DNA from: Methanosarcina sp. MSH10X1
Lineage (GTDB): Archaea; Halobacteriota; Methanosarcinia; Methanosarcinales; Methanosarcinaceae
Direction: 5' to 3'
Length of the DNA: 64,000 bases
NCBI RefSeq assembly: GCF_004099695.1
Contig: NZ_SCHL01000002.1
Span: forward strand, 1 to 64,000
Part shown: positions 22,542-35,092 of the stretch, in pieces
How positions within the stretch are numbered: the first letter of the stretch is position 1
How the letters are laid out: each line of letters starts with the position of its first letter
The notes under the pieces: model-generated
Told to the model about the DNA's origin: nothing
What the model saw: the letters and a program-made list of their open reading frames with translations, nothing else
Databases searched by the model: none
Position numbers and translations under genes: made by a program

Positions 22542-22849
22542 AAATTTATATAGGCGTTGGTGTCAATGCATCTCCGATAACTTAATAAGGAGATTGACTT
22601 CCACTATGCAGAGAATTCAAAACTCCAATCGGCTAAAGGGTTGGATGATTAAGGAAAAATTTGCCTGAGGCTACTATCTCAGGTTATTTAAGTACACCCG
22701 GGGGCTATCTCCTTTTCAACCCAGTAAAACCGGGTGACAATAAGGTAATGAAATCAAATTATGAAACGTAGAAATTTTATCTTCAGGTCTTCCATGATTT
22801 TTAAAGACGGATTTGAAAAAGTGCAGAACCCAGGCCACGCGTGATAGTA
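22542..22849 (+). promoter_or_regulatory. Putative structured leader of ppk
   Basis: A TATA-like AAATTTATATAGG (about 22542-22554) would give a transcript with a leader of about 260 nt before ppk. It contains GGAGATT, a 20-codon ORF (22605-22667), a perfect hairpin CCTGAG/CTCAGG around 22671-22690 and a second pairing ACCCGG/CCGGGT (about 22699-22735). An earlier TATA-like TATATATTAA lies near 22475. The long folded leader suggests post-transcriptional control or a separate small RNA; 22307-22541 holds nothing else I recognise. Confidence 0.4.
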
Positions 22850-25036
22850 ATGGAGCGGAACTTCCCCATTCAGTGTGCAGATTTTGATAGGCTGGTTATG
22901 GATAATGTTAAAGGAGCTCGGGCAGAAGTTTCCGGCATGCCTGACCTCAGTGACCCGTGCTTATATACGGACCGGGAATATAGCTGGCTTCAATTCAATG
23001 ACAGGGTACTTGAAGAAGCTTTTGACGAGCGCAACCCCCTGCTTGAAAGAGTCAAGTTCCTTTCGATTTTTGGAAGTAATCTTGATGAGTTTTTCATGGT
23101 CAGGGTTTCAGGCGTCCAGAGAAGAATAGCGGAAGCTCTAAAAGATGACAGGACAGATGAGCTGGCTCAGGAACAGCTTCGTATAATCCGGGAAGAGCTT
23201 CTCAGGCAGCTTCCTCTTAATGACAGTTGCTGGAATGAGATCCTTGAACCTGCTCTCAGGGAAAAAGGAATTAAAGTTCTTAACTATTTTGAGCTTTCCG
23301 GGAGGGAAAGGGAAAAGCTGAGGGATTATTTCGAGAGAAATATTTTTCCCTTACTCACTCCTCTGGGTTTTGATTCGGGGCACCCTTTCCCTCATATTTC
23401 CAATCTCAGTCTCAACCTTGCAGTCTTAATTGATGACCCTGATTACGGGGAACGTTTTGCAAGGGTCAAGATCCCTCCAATGTTCACGAGACTCATAGTT
23501 GTTCCTGAAGAAGACCAGGAGAGAATAACCTCCAGCCTGGAGGAGCTGAAAACAGGGCGTTTTGTCTGGCTCGAACAGCTTATTGCTGCAAATCTCGACC
23601 TTCTTTTTCCTGGACAGCGCATCCTTGGAGCCTATCCATTCAGGATCACACGCGATGCAGACCTCGGATTTGATGAAGATGGGGATAAAGATCTTCTGAC
23701 TGCTGTAAAACAGAGAGTTGGCAGGAACTATTTCGGGTCGGTTGTCAGACTTGAAACCGATTATACAATGCCTTCAAGAGTTTCCGATATTCTGCTTAAA
23801 AATCTGGAACTTAATGCTTCCCTTATGTTCAGGTCTGCAGCTCCTCTGGGGCTTTCGAGTCTTATTAAGCTTGCACAGATTAACTGTCCTGAACTTAAAT
23901 ACGAGCCCTTTGAGCCGAAAAAACATTCTCAACTGGCAAAAACTGGGAAAATTTTTGCGGTCCTGAAAAAGCGAGACGTTCTTCTTCATCATCCCTATGA
24001 CAGTTTCGAATCGGTAATTGATTTCGTGGAAGAGGCTGCCGATGATTCTGACGTTCTGGCAATTAAAATGACTCTTTACAGGGTGGATGACAATTCCAGG
24101 ATTATCCAGGCTCTTATGAAAGCTGCTGACCGGAAGAAGCAGGTAGCGGTTCTGGTGGAGCTTAAAGCCCGTTTTGATGAGGAAAACAATATTGGCTGGG
24201 CAAAAGAACTTGAGCGCAAAGGAGTTCATGTAGCTTACGGCTTCCCGGGGCGTAAAACGCATGCCAAGATGTGCCTTGTGGTGAGGGCTGAAAAGGAAGG
24301 CATCAGGTATTATGTGCACATGAGCACAGGAAACTATAACGCTGTCACAGGAAAGCTCTATACCGACATGGGTTACCTGACAAGCGACTCATTCATAGGC
24401 AAAGACATCTCTGACCTTTTCAATGCCCTTACAGGATATTCGAGAAAGGACCATTATATCAAACTCCTCGTAGCCCCCCAGACTCTCAGGCATCAGATTC
24501 TGGAGCGCATCAGGCGTGAGATCGACCTGCATGAAAAATACGGGGGCGGGCATCTGATCTTCAAGATGAATTCCCTTGTGGACTACCAGTGCACCCGGGA
24601 ACTTTACAGGGCTTCCCGCGCCGGAGTAAAAGTAGACCTTATTGTCCGGGGAATTTGCTGCCTCAGGCCAGGCATTTTCGGGCTCAGTGAAAATATCAGG
24701 GTTACTTCGATAGTCGGCCGCTTCCTTGAACACTCCCGGATCTACTATTTCAGAAACGGAGGAAAAGAAGAGGTCTTTATGGGAAGTGCCGACCTTATGC
24801 CCCGCAACCTGGACAACAGGGTAGAAGTGCTCTTTCCTGCATCTGCCGACTACATCCCCATCCTGAGAGATGTGATCCTTGGCACTCACCTCAAAGATAA
24901 CGTAAAAGCCCGCCTGCTGCTCCCTAATGGCAGGACTGAAAGAATCCACCCGCAGCCCGAAGAAGAAGAACTGGATTCTCAATTGTGGATGCTTGAAAAC
25001 TGTGGAAGCTGGGATTTAGGCTCTCAGAAAGGGTGA
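22850..25036 (+). CDS. ppk: Polyphosphate kinase
   Basis: 728-residue Ppk1; reversibly transfers the ATP gamma-phosphate to polyphosphate. N-terminal domain SWLQFNDRVLEEAFDERNPLLERVKFL; catalytic phospholipase-D-like halves with KARFDEENN, the histidine segments GVHVAYGFPGRKTHAKMCLV, VHMSTGNYN and YTDMGYLT, and the C-terminal RNLDNRVEVLFP. Start taken at ATG 22850 with GTGAT immediately upstream, the same arrangement as ppx; a GTG at 22841 is the alternative. First gene of a polyphosphate locus with ppx and a CYTH/CHAD protein. Ppk1 is scattered in archaea, so lateral origin is plausible. Confidence 0.95.
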   Translation: MERNFPIQCADFDRLVMDNVKGARAEVSGMPDLSDPCLYTDREYSWLQFNDRVLEEAFDERNPLLERVKFLSIFGSNLDEFFMVRVSGVQRRIAEALKDDRTDELAQEQLRIIREELLRQLPLNDSCWNEILEPALREKGIKVLNYFELSGREREKLRDYFERNIFPLLTPLGFDSGHPFPHISNLSLNLAVLIDDPDYGERFARVKIPPMFTRLIVVPEEDQERITSSLEELKTGRFVWLEQLIAANLDLLFPGQRILGAYPFRITRDADLGFDEDGDKDLLTAVKQRVGRNYFGSVVRLETDYTMPSRVSDILLKNLELNASLMFRSAAPLGLSSLIKLAQINCPELKYEPFEPKKHSQLAKTGKIFAVLKKRDVLLHHPYDSFESVIDFVEEAADDSDVLAIKMTLYRVDDNSRIIQALMKAADRKKQVAVLVELKARFDEENNIGWAKELERKGVHVAYGFPGRKTHAKMCLVVRAEKEGIRYYVHMSTGNYNAVTGKLYTDMGYLTSDSFIGKDISDLFNALTGYSRKDHYIKLLVAPQTLRHQILERIRREIDLHEKYGGGHLIFKMNSLVDYQCTRELYRASRAGVKVDLIVRGICCLRPGIFGLSENIRVTSIVGRFLEHSRIYYFRNGGKEEVFMGSADLMPRNLDNRVEVLFPASADYIPILRDVILGTHLKDNVKARLLLPNGRTERIHPQPEEEELDSQLWMLENCGSWDLGSQKG

Positions 25037-26259: not shown

Positions 26260-26696
26260 TGGTAATATGTAAGAAGACAGCCGGATAAAATTACTGTTCT
26301 AAGTTTCGAACTCAGGTTTTTCCGCTGAATTTTGCTATTTCATATGATACGGGAGTACAGGATATTTGACCGATAACTGCGGCATAAAAAAATATTTTAA
26401 ATGCAAACAGGATACTTTTTTCCATTAGATAGAGCTTAATTTCTCCCTATAACAAACATACAGAAAAAACCTGAAAAGAGAGCTTTCTTAATACCTTTTC
26501 TCTATTAAGCGCATACATAAGCAATATATCCAATACATAGAAAGAATATGTGCGGAAACAATAACAACTACAAACTTCCAATACACTACCAAATAATCTC
26601 AAATAGAATAAAAATATGAACTAGTAGTGTGAAGCTTATTTTGAGTTTCTCGACTCCTTCGAGAAAAACGAAAGACAGGGCTTTCAGGTGATAATA

Positions 26697-28346
26697 ATGG
26701 AACCCGAGAAAACTTCCGAAGGCAGAGTTGTTGCGTTTATAGATATAGGGACTAACTCGGTCCGGCTTCTTCTGGTCCGGATAAATCCCAATGGGTCTTA
26801 CCTTCCCCTGACCAAGCAGAAGGAAACTGTCCGGCTTGGGGATAGGGAATTCATAGACCGGATTTTGCAGCCTAAAGCGATAGAACGCGCAGTTGTTGTC
26901 TGCAAAAAGTTCATGGAACTTGCCAGGGCTTACAGGGCAGAAGAGGTTATAGCCGTGGCTACCTCGGCAACACGGGATGCAAGCAATAAGGTTCAGCTTC
27001 TCGAAATGTTGAAAAAGGAGGCAAATCTGGAAGTCTGCACAATTTCCGGAACCGAAGAAGCTCGTCTTATTTACCTTGGGGTTTCAAGCGGGATTCGGCT
27101 CGGAAGCTCAAAAGCTCTTTTCATAGATATCGGAGGTGGGAGCACTGAAGTATCGGTTGGGGACCAGACCCAGTGTTATTCTCTCTACTCCCTCAACCTT
27201 GGGTCCATCCGGCTGACAAACATGTTCCTGCCTGACGAGACCGGGCCTGTTTCCGAGGAACAGTATGAGCAGATTAAAGAACACATCCGTCGCAAACTTG
27301 CGGATATAACAAAAGACCTTTCCAGGTACAGCGTAAACTGTTCGATCGGAAGCTCGGGAACAATTGAAAACCTTGCCAGGGTCGCTTTTGTCTACCTGCA
27401 CAAAACATCCCATGAAAGCTTTGAGAAACTTGAATACGAAGACCTGAAGGAAATAGTCAGGGCAATGTGTGCCATGCCTCTTGAAGAACGGCGCAAATTC
27501 CCCGGAATCAACTCACAAAGAGCCGATATTATTATCGCAGGGGCTGCAATTATCGAAACATTCATGGAAGAGTTCGGGCTTTCCGAGGTCAGGGTAAGTA
27601 AACGCGGGCTTCGAGAAGGGCTGCTTGTAGATTACATCTCAAAGAGTGAGTTTTCTTACATGATTACACAGATGTCGGTAAGAAAACGCAGCATCATGCA
27701 GCTCGGACTTACCTGCAATTTCGATGAGGAACATGCCCATACCGTCACAAGGCTTGCCCTTGAACTTTTTGATAGCATTCAGGCGCTTGGAATTTACGAG
27801 TTCGGGGTAGGGGAAAGGGAACTTCTGGAGTACGGTTCAACCCTGCATGACATAGGGACTTTCCTGTCATATGATACCCATCAGGCCTATGCCTATCATC
27901 TTATAAGGGAGAGCAGTCTTCCGGGCTTTCAGCCTGAAGAAATCGAAACCATAGCGAACCTTGCCTATTTCCACAGGAAAAATACCCCTAAGAAGAAGCA
28001 TCCCAATCTTGTAGGGCTTAATAAAGAAGTAGTAAAAAGCATCAGGGTTCTGAGCGCCCTGCTCCGCATTGCCGAAGGGCTGGACCGCTCTCATAACGGA
28101 ATTATTTCCCATGTTCGGTTTTATATCGCCTCTACCGACAACCTGGTGCTTGAAATGCACGCTCAGCGGGAATGCCAGCTCGAGATCTGGGAGGTAGAGA
28201 AACAGAAAAAATACTTCAAGAAAATGTTCGGATATAATCTCCAATCCAAAGTTCTTATAATGCAGGATGCTGGAGTTCCCTTAGTCCTTGAAGGCAGTGC
28301 TGAACTTGAGGAAATTCCGGGTGTTGAGGTTTCATACAAAAGCTAA
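26697..28346 (+). CDS. ppx: Exopolyphosphatase (Ppx/GppA family) with HD domain
   Basis: 549 residues. The N-terminal actin-like ASKHA phosphatase (about 1-305) has the phosphate loop DIGTNSVRLLLV, ATSATRDASN, GTEEARLIYLGV, FIDIGGGSTEVS and SSGTIENLA. The C-terminal HD-type domain (about 315-500) has EEHAHTV, LHDIG and RIAEGLDRSH. It releases phosphate from polyphosphate or hydrolyses pppGpp-like nucleotides; adjacency to ppk favours polyphosphate. Start at ATG 26697, with AGGTGAT 5 nt upstream; an ATA/ATA extension from 26688 is unlikely. Confidence 0.93.
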   Translation: MEPEKTSEGRVVAFIDIGTNSVRLLLVRINPNGSYLPLTKQKETVRLGDREFIDRILQPKAIERAVVVCKKFMELARAYRAEEVIAVATSATRDASNKVQLLEMLKKEANLEVCTISGTEEARLIYLGVSSGIRLGSSKALFIDIGGGSTEVSVGDQTQCYSLYSLNLGSIRLTNMFLPDETGPVSEEQYEQIKEHIRRKLADITKDLSRYSVNCSIGSSGTIENLARVAFVYLHKTSHESFEKLEYEDLKEIVRAMCAMPLEERRKFPGINSQRADIIIAGAAIIETFMEEFGLSEVRVSKRGLREGLLVDYISKSEFSYMITQMSVRKRSIMQLGLTCNFDEEHAHTVTRLALELFDSIQALGIYEFGVGERELLEYGSTLHDIGTFLSYDTHQAYAYHLIRESSLPGFQPEEIETIANLAYFHRKNTPKKKHPNLVGLNKEVVKSIRVLSALLRIAEGLDRSHNGIISHVRFYIASTDNLVLEMHAQRECQLEIWEVEKQKKYFKKMFGYNLQSKVLIMQDAGVPLVLEGSAELEEIPGVEVSYKS

Positions 28347-28370: not shown

Positions 28371-28393
28371 AATGAGTTTAAGTAAAGCTCATT
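28371..28393. terminator. Small hairpin between convergent ppx and CYTH/CHAD genes
   Basis: AATGAG (28371-28376) pairs with CTCATT (28388-28393); the second arm touches the stop codon of the minus-strand gene. Convergent placement suggests a shared terminator. The stem is short. Confidence 0.4.
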
Positions 28394-31034
28394 AATACAG
28401 ATTTTTTATTGCACTTTCAATTCTTTCCCTGAAATTCCTGTTCCTTATCCTTTCCCAGGCCTCGGGAAAAGTATTGAGCAGTGTCTGGAGTTCCTCTTCC
28501 CTGTACGCGAGATAGGCTTCGATTCCCTCTGCGCCTGTCGGGAACTTTTTCTTTTCGGAAGCTTTTTCACTTCCGGCAGAACCCCATTCTCCGGTTTTCA
28601 GGTAAGAGCCCAGCCGATCAACTGCAATTACTGCATCGTGCATATCTCCAAGGTGTTCCTGTAAGGTTTTAAGCTCCTTGACCAGGACTTTTGCATCTTC
28701 CCCAAGCACGCTCTCAAAGAATTCAAGGGTATAACGCATTCCTTTGGCTGCAATCCTTAGCCTGTGCAGACGTTCCACAGGAAGATAAGGTCCATCTACC
28801 CATTCGGAATACGCGTTGATATCTGCTAAACGTGCATAAAGGATTGAAGGGAGAACTTCTCTTACCCTGTGGGGCAAAGCATCATGTTTCCTGTTAATTG
28901 CAGGAAGGCCCAGATTTTCGGGAGAGGCAAGCACATCGGAAAATTCTCTTTTAAAAGCCTGGTATTTCTCGCTGTCCAGATAAGCAAGCATATCTTTCCT
29001 GGCTTCTTCTCGCTCCAGCGTTAGCATTGCAAAAAGGGAGTCCAGATCATGTTCATGCCCCGTAGGCAGGGTTTTCAGGTACTTTTCGGCCTTTTCGCGA
29101 AAAACGTCCAGATCCCTTACTTCCCCGAGCGAACCAAGTGTTATCTTTAGCCCTTTAAGATAAGGTTCAAGCTGTCTGGAATCAAGATAAGCCTCGAAAA
29201 TTTTTGTAGCCGCTCTCATCCTCCGGACTGCAACCCGCATATCATGGAGCTCTTCAATCTCTTCTCCTTTTACGGTTCCTCTTTCGTGGGAAAGCATGCT
29301 AGAAAATTGATAGGAAAGAATCCTGCAGGCAAGCCCTGCCATAGAGTCAGCAGGTCTAACAGTTACTTCCTTACGTTGTCTGAAATTTTTTTTCTCTATT
29401 TTTTCTTCCCTTTCAGCCTTTTTCTCTTCTCGTTTCTTCTCTTCTCCGGCTTGCTTCTTTTCTGGTTTCTTATCTTTCCCTGCCTGTTTCTTTATTCCTG
29501 CTTCATTTATTTCGGATTTATCTTCGGTCAGGTCTTTTTCTTCTTCAGCCCGGGAAAACAGGAGTTTGCTTTCAGAAAGAGTTTTCCAGAGCTTACTCTT
29601 TGTCTCAAATTTTTTTGCAGCTTTTTCATTTAGAGCTCCTATTATCTCTATTTCCAGAGCATCCTCAAGCTGCTTTATCTTCCCGGGCCTGGTACCGGAA
29701 GCTTCGAAAAGGTCTGCAATCGACGTAATGGCTGCAAGCATCAGGGCTTTATTCTGGAGGCCGGGAGGTAGCCTCGTATTGAGACCCTTAAAGATTGAGA
29801 TTACACCTTTTTCGTTTACATACGGATCATGAAGTTCCGTTATCAGGGCAAGCATCAAAGTTTCGTGGAGCCTGAGCCCTTTTATGGAGTGGGTCAGAAG
29901 GATTTCCCTGCTCATACGGTTACTCTCCTCGGGAAAGATAAAATTCCCGGTATCCTTCAGTAAGGCTGCAAGCCCCAGGAGTTTTCTCTCTTCCTGGCCC
30001 ATTCCATGAAATATAAACAGCTCGTCAAAAAGCGTAAGAGCATATTCCCGGGTTTTTTCTGCTCTGTTTGTATTTGCTTCATAGTATTCAAGCAGGCTTT
30101 CGGGGTCCCATCGCTTAAATCCTGCCTCTTTCTTTCCCTTTTTCAAAATATGGTTTTTTCCGACCAGGAGATGAAACTCACAGTCTTTTTCTTTATATGT
30201 TGTAAAAGGAAAAATAGAAAGCCTTTTTTCCTTAAACTTTGAGCGCAGGGCTTTGATTCCGGTTTGAGGGACTTTCAGAAGCTGACTGAGCTCCTCACAG
30301 GTCTGTCCCCTGTCAAGTCCTATTAAAATTTGAGCCTGCTTTCCATACATATTTTTCTGGCTGGCAAGCTGTGCGCAAAAAGCTCTTTCTCTCAGGCTGA
30401 GGAAAGTGTTCTCTGGAAGTTTCTCCATGAAAAGATAGGCTCTCTCGAACTTGGAAAAATGGCTTTCTGCCAGGTTATAGTGCCTGAGCAGGAAGACCCG
30501 CATAATTTCCAGATCTTCCTGGCTTCCTTCACTTTTAAGCTCAATTTCAAATTCATTATAGTGCTTTTCTCTGCCTCCGCTCTTCAGGTTTACCCTATCC
30601 AGGTAAGTCTCGGCTACAAGTCTTTCTCCCATCTTTACCTGGCGTATCATTCTTTTCTGTTTGAGGGACAGGAGCGGGAAAAGGTCAAGCCCTGCCGTAA
30701 GTTCGAAAATCAGATCTCTGATACGAGGGTCAGGGCACTCAAGCACAGATTTTCCTTCAGGCAGGAAACTTACATACTCCTCTCGCCTGTGAGTTCCTCC
30801 TTCAAAACCTCCCAGGCTTTTAACGGTTACCCAGCTTCCCTCTTCGCCATGCGATTTCCTGACCCTCAGGTAATAGCCCGATGCCATAATAGCCCGGTTC
30901 TCAGTATCAAAGAAAATATCCTCATTTAACTGAATTTTTGCCCCGGAGAGAGCGTATGAAGCAAGCTCCGAAAGGCTTTCAAGGGCCTGAAAATCCACCT
31001 CTTCTGTTACAAGAAACTTAGACTCTATCTCCAT
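28392..31034 (-). CDS. CYTH-HTH-HD-like-CHAD polyphosphate-associated fusion protein
   Basis: 880 residues from the ATG at 31034, which has GGAGAG 6 nt upstream and yields the CYTH start MEIESKFLV. Parts: CYTH triphosphate-tunnel domain (about 1-200; ExExK, then LRVRK, KQKRMIR, EIELK); a helix-turn-helix (about 225-275; LDRGQTCEELSQLLKVPQTG); an HD-like domain (about 312-470) resembling the Ppx C-terminal domain but with LKDTG in place of LHDIG, so probably inactive; a Lys/Glu linker (495-558); and a CHAD domain (about 565-880; LHDMRVAVRRMRAATKIFE, LHRLRIAAKGMRYTLEFFE). CYTH binds or cleaves triphosphates and CHAD binds polyphosphate. A longer reading to 31145 translates repeat DNA and is rejected. 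Confidence 0.85.
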   Translation of the reverse strand: MEIESKFLVTEEVDFQALESLSELASYALSGAKIQLNEDIFFDTENRAIMASGYYLRVRKSHGEEGSWVTVKSLGGFEGGTHRREEYVSFLPEGKSVLECPDPRIRDLIFELTAGLDLFPLLSLKQKRMIRQVKMGERLVAETYLDRVNLKSGGREKHYNEFEIELKSEGSQEDLEIMRVFLLRHYNLAESHFSKFERAYLFMEKLPENTFLSLRERAFCAQLASQKNMYGKQAQILIGLDRGQTCEELSQLLKVPQTGIKALRSKFKEKRLSIFPFTTYKEKDCEFHLLVGKNHILKKGKKEAGFKRWDPESLLEYYEANTNRAEKTREYALTLFDELFIFHGMGQEERKLLGLAALLKDTGNFIFPEESNRMSREILLTHSIKGLRLHETLMLALITELHDPYVNEKGVISIFKGLNTRLPPGLQNKALMLAAITSIADLFEASGTRPGKIKQLEDALEIEIIGALNEKAAKKFETKSKLWKTLSESKLLFSRAEEEKDLTEDKSEINEAGIKKQAGKDKKPEKKQAGEEKKREEKKAEREEKIEKKNFRQRKEVTVRPADSMAGLACRILSYQFSSMLSHERGTVKGEEIEELHDMRVAVRRMRAATKIFEAYLDSRQLEPYLKGLKITLGSLGEVRDLDVFREKAEKYLKTLPTGHEHDLDSLFAMLTLEREEARKDMLAYLDSEKYQAFKREFSDVLASPENLGLPAINRKHDALPHRVREVLPSILYARLADINAYSEWVDGPYLPVERLHRLRIAAKGMRYTLEFFESVLGEDAKVLVKELKTLQEHLGDMHDAVIAVDRLGSYLKTGEWGSAGSEKASEKKKFPTGAEGIEAYLAYREEELQTLLNTFPEAWERIRNRNFRERIESAIKNLY

Positions 31035-31103: not shown

Positions 31104-31385
31104 AAGCCTTTTGAGAAAAGGCTTGAGCGAAAACCCATGCTTCATCTAAACCAACATAACCGGAGCGTGATAAACCGGCGCAACGCAAGCCTTTTGAGAA
31201 AAGGCTTGAGCGAAAATCCCCAGGCAACGGCGTGATAAACCGGCGCAACGCAAGCCTTTTGAGGAAAGGCTTGAGCGAAAACCTTTTGAGAAAAGGTTTT
31301 ATCGAAAACAACGTAACGGCGTGATCGACCGGCGCAACGGTCGCGGGTCAACGGTTTCGGGTCAACGGTTTCGGGTCAGCGGTTG
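31104..31385. repeat. Cluster of hairpin repeats upstream of the CYTH/CHAD gene
   Basis: Four palindromes of the type AAGCCTTTT-GAG-AAAAGGCTT at 31104-31124, 31187-31207, 31252-31272 (one mismatch) and a variant AAAACCTTTT-GAG-AAAAGGTTTT at 31278-31300. Two lie in a 65-bp repeat containing GCGTGATAAACCGGCGCAAC (from about 31165 and 31230; a third partial copy from 31319). A 14-bp tandem CGGGTCAACGGTTT follows three times (31344-31385). The GC content is far above the surrounding spacer. A partial unit also lies at 31049-31103. Confidence 0.85.
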
Positions 31386-33402: not shown

Positions 33403-33439
33403 CTTTATCCCAGAATGGTTTGTGATTTCTTTTTCCAGA

Positions 33440-35092
33440 TTACATCATTGGAGGCATTCCGCCCATTCCGCCCATTCCACCCATTCCTGGAGGCATTCCG
33501 CCCATTTCTTCTGGGCCTGGGGCTGCACGGGTAGAAGCTATAATATCGTCGATCCTCAGGATCATAACAGCAGACTCTGTAGCTGCATTGATTACCTGGG
33601 TCTTGACTCTGAGAGGCTCGACTACAAAGTCTTTCCACATGTCAACGACTTTCCCTTCAAAAACGTTGAGTCCTGCGGTTTTTATGCCTTTCTCGTGCTG
33701 GGAGCGCAACTCCATGAGCATGTCGATGGGGTCGAGCCCTGCATTTTCTGCAAGAGTTCTCGGAATGATTTCAAGAGCTTCGGCATAGGCTTTTACTGCA
33801 AGCTGTTCTCTGCCTTCGAGGGTTGCTGCGTATTCCTGGAGCCTGAGTGCAACCTCAACTTCAGGGGAACCGCCGCCTGCAACAAGCTTCTCATCCTCGA
33901 TTGCAACGCCAACAACACGCAGGGCATCCTCAAGAGCGCTGTCAATGCTGTCAACTACATGCTCTGTGCCGCCGCGCAGAAGGATGGTTACAGCTTTCGG
34001 GTTGTTGCAGCCTGTGACAAAGGTCATATTGTCGCCGCCAACTCTCTTCTCTTCCACAAGTCCTGCATATCCGAGGTCTTCGGGAGTGATCTCGTCCATG
34101 TTGGTAATGAGTTTGCCGCCCGTTGCTCTGGCAAGCTTTTCCATGTCGCTCTTTTTAACTCTGCGCACGGCAAAGATACCTGCTTTTGCAAGGTAGTGCT
34201 GGGCAAGGTCTTCAATTCCCTTCTGGCAGAAGACAACGTTTGCTCCACTGCCGATAACCTTCTGGACTATCTTCTTCAGCATCTGCTCTTCCTGGTCAAG
34301 GAAAGACTGGAGCTGGTCAGGAGAGGTTATGGAGATTTCCGCGTCGACTTCGGTATCCTTGAGTTCGATTGCGGCGTTGAGGAGAATGATTTTTGCGTCC
34401 TTAATTTTTTCAGGCATATTGGGATGGATTCTTTCCTTATCAATGATCATGCCCCTGATGAGCTCGGAATCCTCTACCCTGCCGCCTACCTTCTTCACAA
34501 CATTGATATTGTCTCTGTCAACGCTTGCCTTTCCGTTTGTGTCCACAACGCTTGTGACGGCATCTACGGCGATTCCGGAGAGAAGTTTTTTGGAGGACTC
34601 TGCACCCTTTCCGGTCATTGCGGTTTCAGCGATGCTGACTAACAGGTCACGATCGGACATTTCTACTGTCATTGCCAGGGAGTTAAGGACTTCTACGGCT
34701 TTTTCGGCTGCAAGCCTGTACCCTGATGCAATAATTGTCGGGTGGATTTCCTGCTCAATTAAATCCTCAGCTTTGCTTAAGAGCTGGCCTGCGACCACAG
34801 CTGCACTGGTAGTGCCGTCCCCTACTTCTTCATCCTGGGTCTTGGCTACTTCCACTACCATCTTTGCTGCAGGGTGTTCGATGTCCATCTCTTTAAGAAT
34901 GGTTGCCCCGTCGTTTGTAATAACTACATCACCCATAGAGTCCACGAGCATTTTGTCCATGCCCTTGGGTCCGAGGGTGGTTCTGACGGCTTCGGCTACT
35001 GCCTTTGCAGCCATAATATTGTTACTCTGGGCATCCCTGCCTCTGGTTCGCTTACTTCCTTCTTTTAAAATGAATATTGGCTGTCCTGCCAT
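33440..35092 (-). CDS. ths: Thermosome (group II chaperonin) subunit
   Basis: 550 residues. A cytosolic double-ring chaperonin subunit with built-in lid. Signatures: [12 protein letters not shown], nucleotide loop [24 protein letters not shown], and the C-terminal flexible GGM tail ([20 protein letters not shown]). GGAGG lies 8 nt before the ATG. Methanosarcina encodes several subunits; this is a complete one. Monocistronic, probably heat-inducible like its relatives, but no specific heat-shock element was identified. Confidence 0.95.

Follow-up and report, generated by a model that had tools for sequence, protein, structure and literature searches.

An intact open reading frame in Methanosarcina sp. 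MSH10X1 encodes a protein of 880 amino acids in which a CYTH domain, a trihelical helix-turn-helix (HTH) module, an HD fold, a charged linker and a CHAD domain follow one another in this order. It lies on the minus strand of the window, by which we mean the whole stretch of 64,000 nucleotides that was analysed. The HD module is a diverged domain III of the Ppx/GppA type and, judged from its residues, is predicted to be catalytically dead. We consider the fusion to be probably a CYTH enzyme that is anchored on polyphosphate and carries a non-catalytic middle.

The four-module order proposed in an earlier note on this DNA, which gave no strand for the gene, was recovered by Pfam, profile searches, AlphaFold and Foldseek (Table 1). 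Translation starts at the ATG at 31034; a second in-frame ATG occurs at 31145, within three tandem repeat arrays (periods 27, 27 and 14) that prolong the open frame to that codon. The charged linker varies in length across species in the alignment. We also considered that the window copy might be a decayed gene or a frameshift artefact, and rejected this because the frame is open, dN/dS is well below 1 and the gene is kept genus-wide.

Table 1. Coordinates of the fusion gene, its parts and its neighbours in the window
Feature	Position	Strand	Basis
Whole gene, CYTH-HTH-pseudoHD-CHAD, 880 aa	28392..31034	-	ORF, Pfam, full-length relatives in the same genus
CYTH / triphosphate tunnel domain, residues 1-205	30420..31034	-	Pfam, invariant residues
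HTH-like three-helix module, residues 229-274	30213..30350	-	AF2, few Pfam HTH matches
Degenerate HD, Ppx/GppA domain III type, residues 311-495	29550..30104	-	Profiles, AF2, Foldseek, tree
R324, first HD metal-ligand histidine column	30063..30065	-	Alignment; R/K in 25/30 fusions
K360-D361, replaces the HD motif His-Asp pair	29952..29957	-	Alignment
Charged low-complexity linker, residues 497-556	29367..29546	-	Alignment; pLDDT ~25
CHAD polyphosphate-binding domain, residues 557-880	28395..29366	-	Pfam, CtCHAD alignment
Short tandem repeats directly 5' of the start codon	31048..31387	.	Create an alternative 5' extension
Ppx exopolyphosphatase, convergent neighbour	26688..28346	+	Own domain III
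Polyphosphate kinase 1	22841..25036	+	ORF list, Pfam

At the N-terminal end, Pfam CYTH (PF01928) matched residues 2-200 with an E-value of 5e-24 (85.5 bits against a cut-off of 23.2). The ExExK motif (E2, E4, K6) and residues R57, R59, K72, E85, R128, E163 and K195 are invariant in 23 relatives. The domain gave a weak PDB match to E. coli YgiF (5a60), and Foldseek with the full-length model listed 6yp4 and 2een for the CYTH part, itself of low pLDDT. Because this part of the model was poorly predicted, we argue for an intact CYTH tunnel from sequence only. A recent origin from the other CYTH gene of the genome was discounted, as the fusion CYTH profile had no match there at E 0.01.

At the C-terminal end, Pfam CHAD (PF05235) matched residues 572-808 (E 3e-55; 187.9 bits against a curated cut-off of 25.6), and the region aligns with the polyphosphate-bound CtCHAD structures 6qv7 and 6qva. 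Residues H597, R600, R640, H757, R760, K764 and R767 are invariant in the 23 relatives and R604 is kept in at least 90% of them. In the alignment, H597, R600, R604 and R640 are the conserved counterparts of H253, R256, R260 and R296, through which CtCHAD contacts polyphosphate (PMC6537752). CHAD domains bind polyphosphate, and those tested did not bind nucleic acids (PMC6537752). The polyphosphate link drawn in the earlier note is supported both by the CHAD domain with its contact residues and by a conserved ppk/ppx neighbourhood. The fusion is the sole CHAD protein of its genome.

The kinship of the HD module emerged from several lines of evidence. Pfam Ppx-GppA_III (PF21447, HD superfamily) matched residues 313-407 at E 7e-4, below the curated cut-off; a profile made of fusion sequences alone reached PDB exopolyphosphatases at E 1.6e-5, and a family-wide profile, to which relatives had been added, reached them at E 2.9e-19. 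Since the full-length AlphaFold model was poor in CYTH, the middle (residues 205-505) was modelled alone from 54 sequences. This AlphaFold2 model (mean pLDDT 87, pTM 0.85) has an HD-type bundle at 311-495, the earlier note having placed the HD fold at 312-470. Its best 26 Foldseek matches were all Ppx/GppA chains, including 3rf0 with a TM-score of 0.72 on the target, and the full-length model again matched Ppx/GppA as well as CHAD and triphosphate-tunnel folds. Pfam, the fusion profile, AlphaFold and Foldseek thus confirm the homology to Ppx domain III that had been seen by eye, while the register of that alignment was off by two residues: the ligand column is occupied by R324, not E326. Pfam found no match to PF02541, the ASKHA-type catalytic domains I-II of exopolyphosphatases, in the fusion protein.

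In a tree of HD domains, which has no outside root and drew a treekit warning that long branches meet, the degenerate HDs form a single clade (support 99/96), which falls with the CYTH-HD and stand-alone HD proteins of the same family and separately from every Ppx domain. We rejected the other origin considered, descent from the domain of the adjacent Ppx: the Ppx domains form a clade of their own, and the fusion profiles score far more strongly on CYTH-HD and stand-alone HD proteins than on Ppx.

We aligned 71 HD domains over the seven metal-ligand columns (H, H, D, H, H, H, D). The 25 stand-alone, CYTH-HD and phosphoesterase-HD proteins retain every one of these ligands. Among the 16 Ppx copies, six columns do not vary and the remaining one holds His or Gln, the Ppx beside the fusion having its HD residues intact except for Gln at one of two adjacent His columns. 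Not one of the seven columns is invariant among the 30 fusion proteins, in which the first is Arg or Lys in 25, the second Lys or Gln in 19, the H4 column Gln in 23 and the last Glu in 17; D361 and H402 are the only ligand-column residues left in the window copy. The loss of HD catalytic residues claimed in the earlier note is borne out by this alignment, and no conserved His/Asp set that might re-form a metal site elsewhere in the domain was found in it. Values of dN/dS of about 0.16-0.50 in the HD domain, compared with 0.07-0.45 in CYTH and CHAD, indicate purifying selection.

In the mechanism that we favour, which is also the simplest, the CHAD end would hold the protein on polyphosphate, as its homologues with demonstrated binding suggest, and the CYTH end, its catalytic signature intact, would cleave tripolyphosphate, the ends of polyphosphate or a nucleoside triphosphate. 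The HTH and the degenerate HD may position the two ends, dock a partner such as Ppx, or bind an anionic ligand at the former metal site. In a rival reading, the HD would be an allosteric sensor of phosphate or polyphosphate, whose basic residues at the former metal site bind an anion and switch CYTH on or off. The Arg/Lys and Lys/Gln prevalence at the first two ligand columns and the purifying selection on the domain are consistent with such a sensor, but the remaining columns hold Ala, Lys, Gln or Glu with no single fixed pattern, and dN/dS tends to be highest in the HD domain, which suits a scaffold equally; we regard the sensor as rather unlikely. That the middle is a passive spacer, its sole role being to link CYTH to CHAD, seems to us improbable. 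The decayed HD ligands, the dN/dS of HD somewhat above that of CYTH and CHAD, and the lack of any such insert between CYTH and CHAD in E. coli YgiF all speak for a spacer, whereas the retained fold and the many invariant residues in the HTH and HD modules (for example Y230, G231, K232, W309, F336, D337, H382 and K385) speak against it.

The HTH module bears on a further reading, namely that the protein is a polyphosphate-responsive transcription regulator in which CHAD, CYTH and the degenerate HD sense polyphosphate while the HTH contacts DNA, for instance near ppk-ppx. AlphaFold2 places helices at 229-241, 246-253 and 257-274 with a pLDDT of about 95 for the module, and Pfam HTH_23 and HTH_29 matched few members (best E 4e-4, with HTH_23 in 2 of 20), so the three-helix fold proposed in the earlier note stands. 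Its proposed DNA-reading role is not supported: although helix 3 is basic (+5) in the window copy, its median net charge over 23 relatives is -1, as in PEPEIEALLSRFEKERL, which argues against a conserved role in reading DNA. A conserved basic recognition helix was not found in these 23 sequences, the helix being near-neutral and unconserved. Moreover, the nearest PDB sequence matches include the helix pair of an adaptor protein and not DNA binders alone, the kept CYTH signature points to an enzyme more than to a transcription factor, and the tested CHAD domains lack nucleic acid binding, as cited above. We therefore hold a regulator of this kind to be very unlikely.

A bolder reading, a four-module polyphosphate switch, appears doubtful to us: CHAD would grip polyphosphate, the former metal site would read its state, and the reading would gate CYTH or an HTH contact with DNA or with a partner such as Ppx. 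If true, it would give methanogens a built-in polyphosphate-responsive controller. Polyphosphate regulation in archaea is poorly understood, and a 2019 study of M. mazei calls for further work on the regulation of ppk and ppx (PMC6864096). The fusion is an obvious knock-out target, because it is the only CHAD protein of the genome, has ppk and ppx as neighbours, and contains a dead enzyme module that is under selection.

The combination is unusual, yet it is built of known polyphosphate parts. The passage of PMC8233210 that cites Iyer and Aravind 2002 already reports that CYTH occurs fused to HD hydrolase, exopolyphosphatase and CHAD domains. Neither an experiment on this protein nor an account of its HTH, its HD ligand loss or the four-part order came up in the open-access papers searched, a result that cannot show absence. 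Like the CYTH-CHAD inorganic triphosphatases of the E. coli YgiF type, whose structure 5a60 it matches in the PDB, the fusion has CYTH first and CHAD last, both recognised by Pfam; unlike them, it carries the HTH, the degenerate HD (about 290 residues together) and the charged linker between these ends, and the closest kin of its CYTH are CYTH-HD proteins of neighbouring genera. With Ppx/GppA domain III it shares fold and detectable sequence kinship, but it lacks the metal ligands and the Ppx catalytic domain and falls outside the Ppx clade. The CYTH-HD proteins (L067, L068, L095-L100) are its nearest CYTH and HD relatives by profile; they differ in having intact HD ligands, no HTH, and CHAD in a separate gene, which in the one examined has an N-terminal DUF7139-like part. 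CHAD-HD and CHAD-phosphoesterase-HD proteins of other orders (L116, L117, L115) likewise unite CHAD with an HD of this family in a single polypeptide and adjoin ppk, and in L116 and L117 also ppx, but have CHAD first and neither CYTH nor HTH; the HDs of L115 and L116, unlike that of the fusion, score above the Pfam HD and Ppx-GppA_III cut-offs. The series of separate genes, CYTH-HD, CHAD-HD and four-module fusion points to repeated re-wiring of polyphosphate parts, and the family series also shows an HD enzyme becoming a pseudoenzyme.

The full-length gene was present in nearly all same-genus genomes searched, with a few copies incomplete or broken. The 23 full-length sequences aligned share 51-77% identity, and the named relatives are all Methanosarcina. 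Some genomes have a second copy, about 80% identical and truncated or with stops (L101:2035-2913 in G002, L138, L139, G016:C544, G020:C80, G018:C57); G002, G016 and G020 also keep another copy at full length. Within the same family, the four-module order was found in genera g1, g14, g15 and g16, and g18 has a divergent form in which only the family profile picks up the HD, so that the search beyond the genus suggested in the earlier note places the fusion in three or four other genera. One divergent fusion of 1024 aa (L064:2473-5544), which adjoins ppk, has its CYTH and HTH separated by an extended stretch of (I/D)xKTN-type repeats.

Genera g21 and g22 have instead a CYTH-HD protein of 416-450 aa that keeps all HD ligands, and where enough of the locus was read, ppk, a Ppx-type protein and a separately encoded CHAD protein lie within a few kb of it. 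The fusion profiles scored best on these genes of neighbouring genera: CYTH on CYTH-HD (1e-37 to 9e-33), CHAD on the separate CHAD (6e-103 to 5e-98, against 3e-32 or weaker elsewhere) and HD on CYTH-HD (7e-32 to 2e-26, against 1e-21 or weaker). Because the closest scores are to these genes, we infer that CYTH-HD and CHAD genes were most likely joined in an ancestor of part of the family, with gain of the HTH and loss of HD catalysis. Since the HD is degenerate, the fused state is taken as derived, and fission is judged less likely than fusion. Loss of HD function may, at a guess, have been tolerated thanks to the separate intact HD gene found in most of these genomes, including those of g1, g14 and g15; in our search none was seen in g16 or in the genera whose fusions have diverged most. 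In the window's own genome, this stand-alone HD of 217 aa, of the Ppx domain III family and with all seven ligands, lies in the G000:C16:4990-5643 region (L002:1504-2154, minus strand), near a histidine-phosphatase-like gene, and a similar gene occurs in nearly every same-genus genome searched.

The fusion gene is convergent with ppx in most g1, g14 and g15 loci with enough flank, and in loci that extend far enough, ppk precedes ppx. A single ppk-ppx operon has been described in M. acetivorans (PMC6821655); the fusion gene, being on the opposite strand, stands outside it. In other parts of the phylum, genes for CHAD and the HD family are again found together with ppk and ppx, either as neighbours or joined in CHAD-HD and CHAD-phosphoesterase-HD fusions. 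Shuffled CHAD-metallophosphoesterase-HD, CHAD-HD and metallophosphoesterase-HD genes were seen adjacent to ppk or ppx at L115:3368-5797, L116:3042-4739, L117:5575-7284, L070:1733-3256 and L075:3081-4472; ORFs of 508 aa in other orders, considered as CYTH-HTH-HD candidates, were assigned by Pfam to metallophosphoesterase-HD. In two of the g21 and g22 loci (L129:9486-10409 and L130:8092-9012), the Ppx-type protein has 307-308 aa and lacks domain III, and in these genomes the HD is instead fused to CYTH. Finally, an ORF of 406 aa at 33422-34642 on the plus strand of the window runs antisense to a thermosome-like chaperonin gene (33440-35092, minus strand) and is probably no gene but a mirror of its coding sequence.
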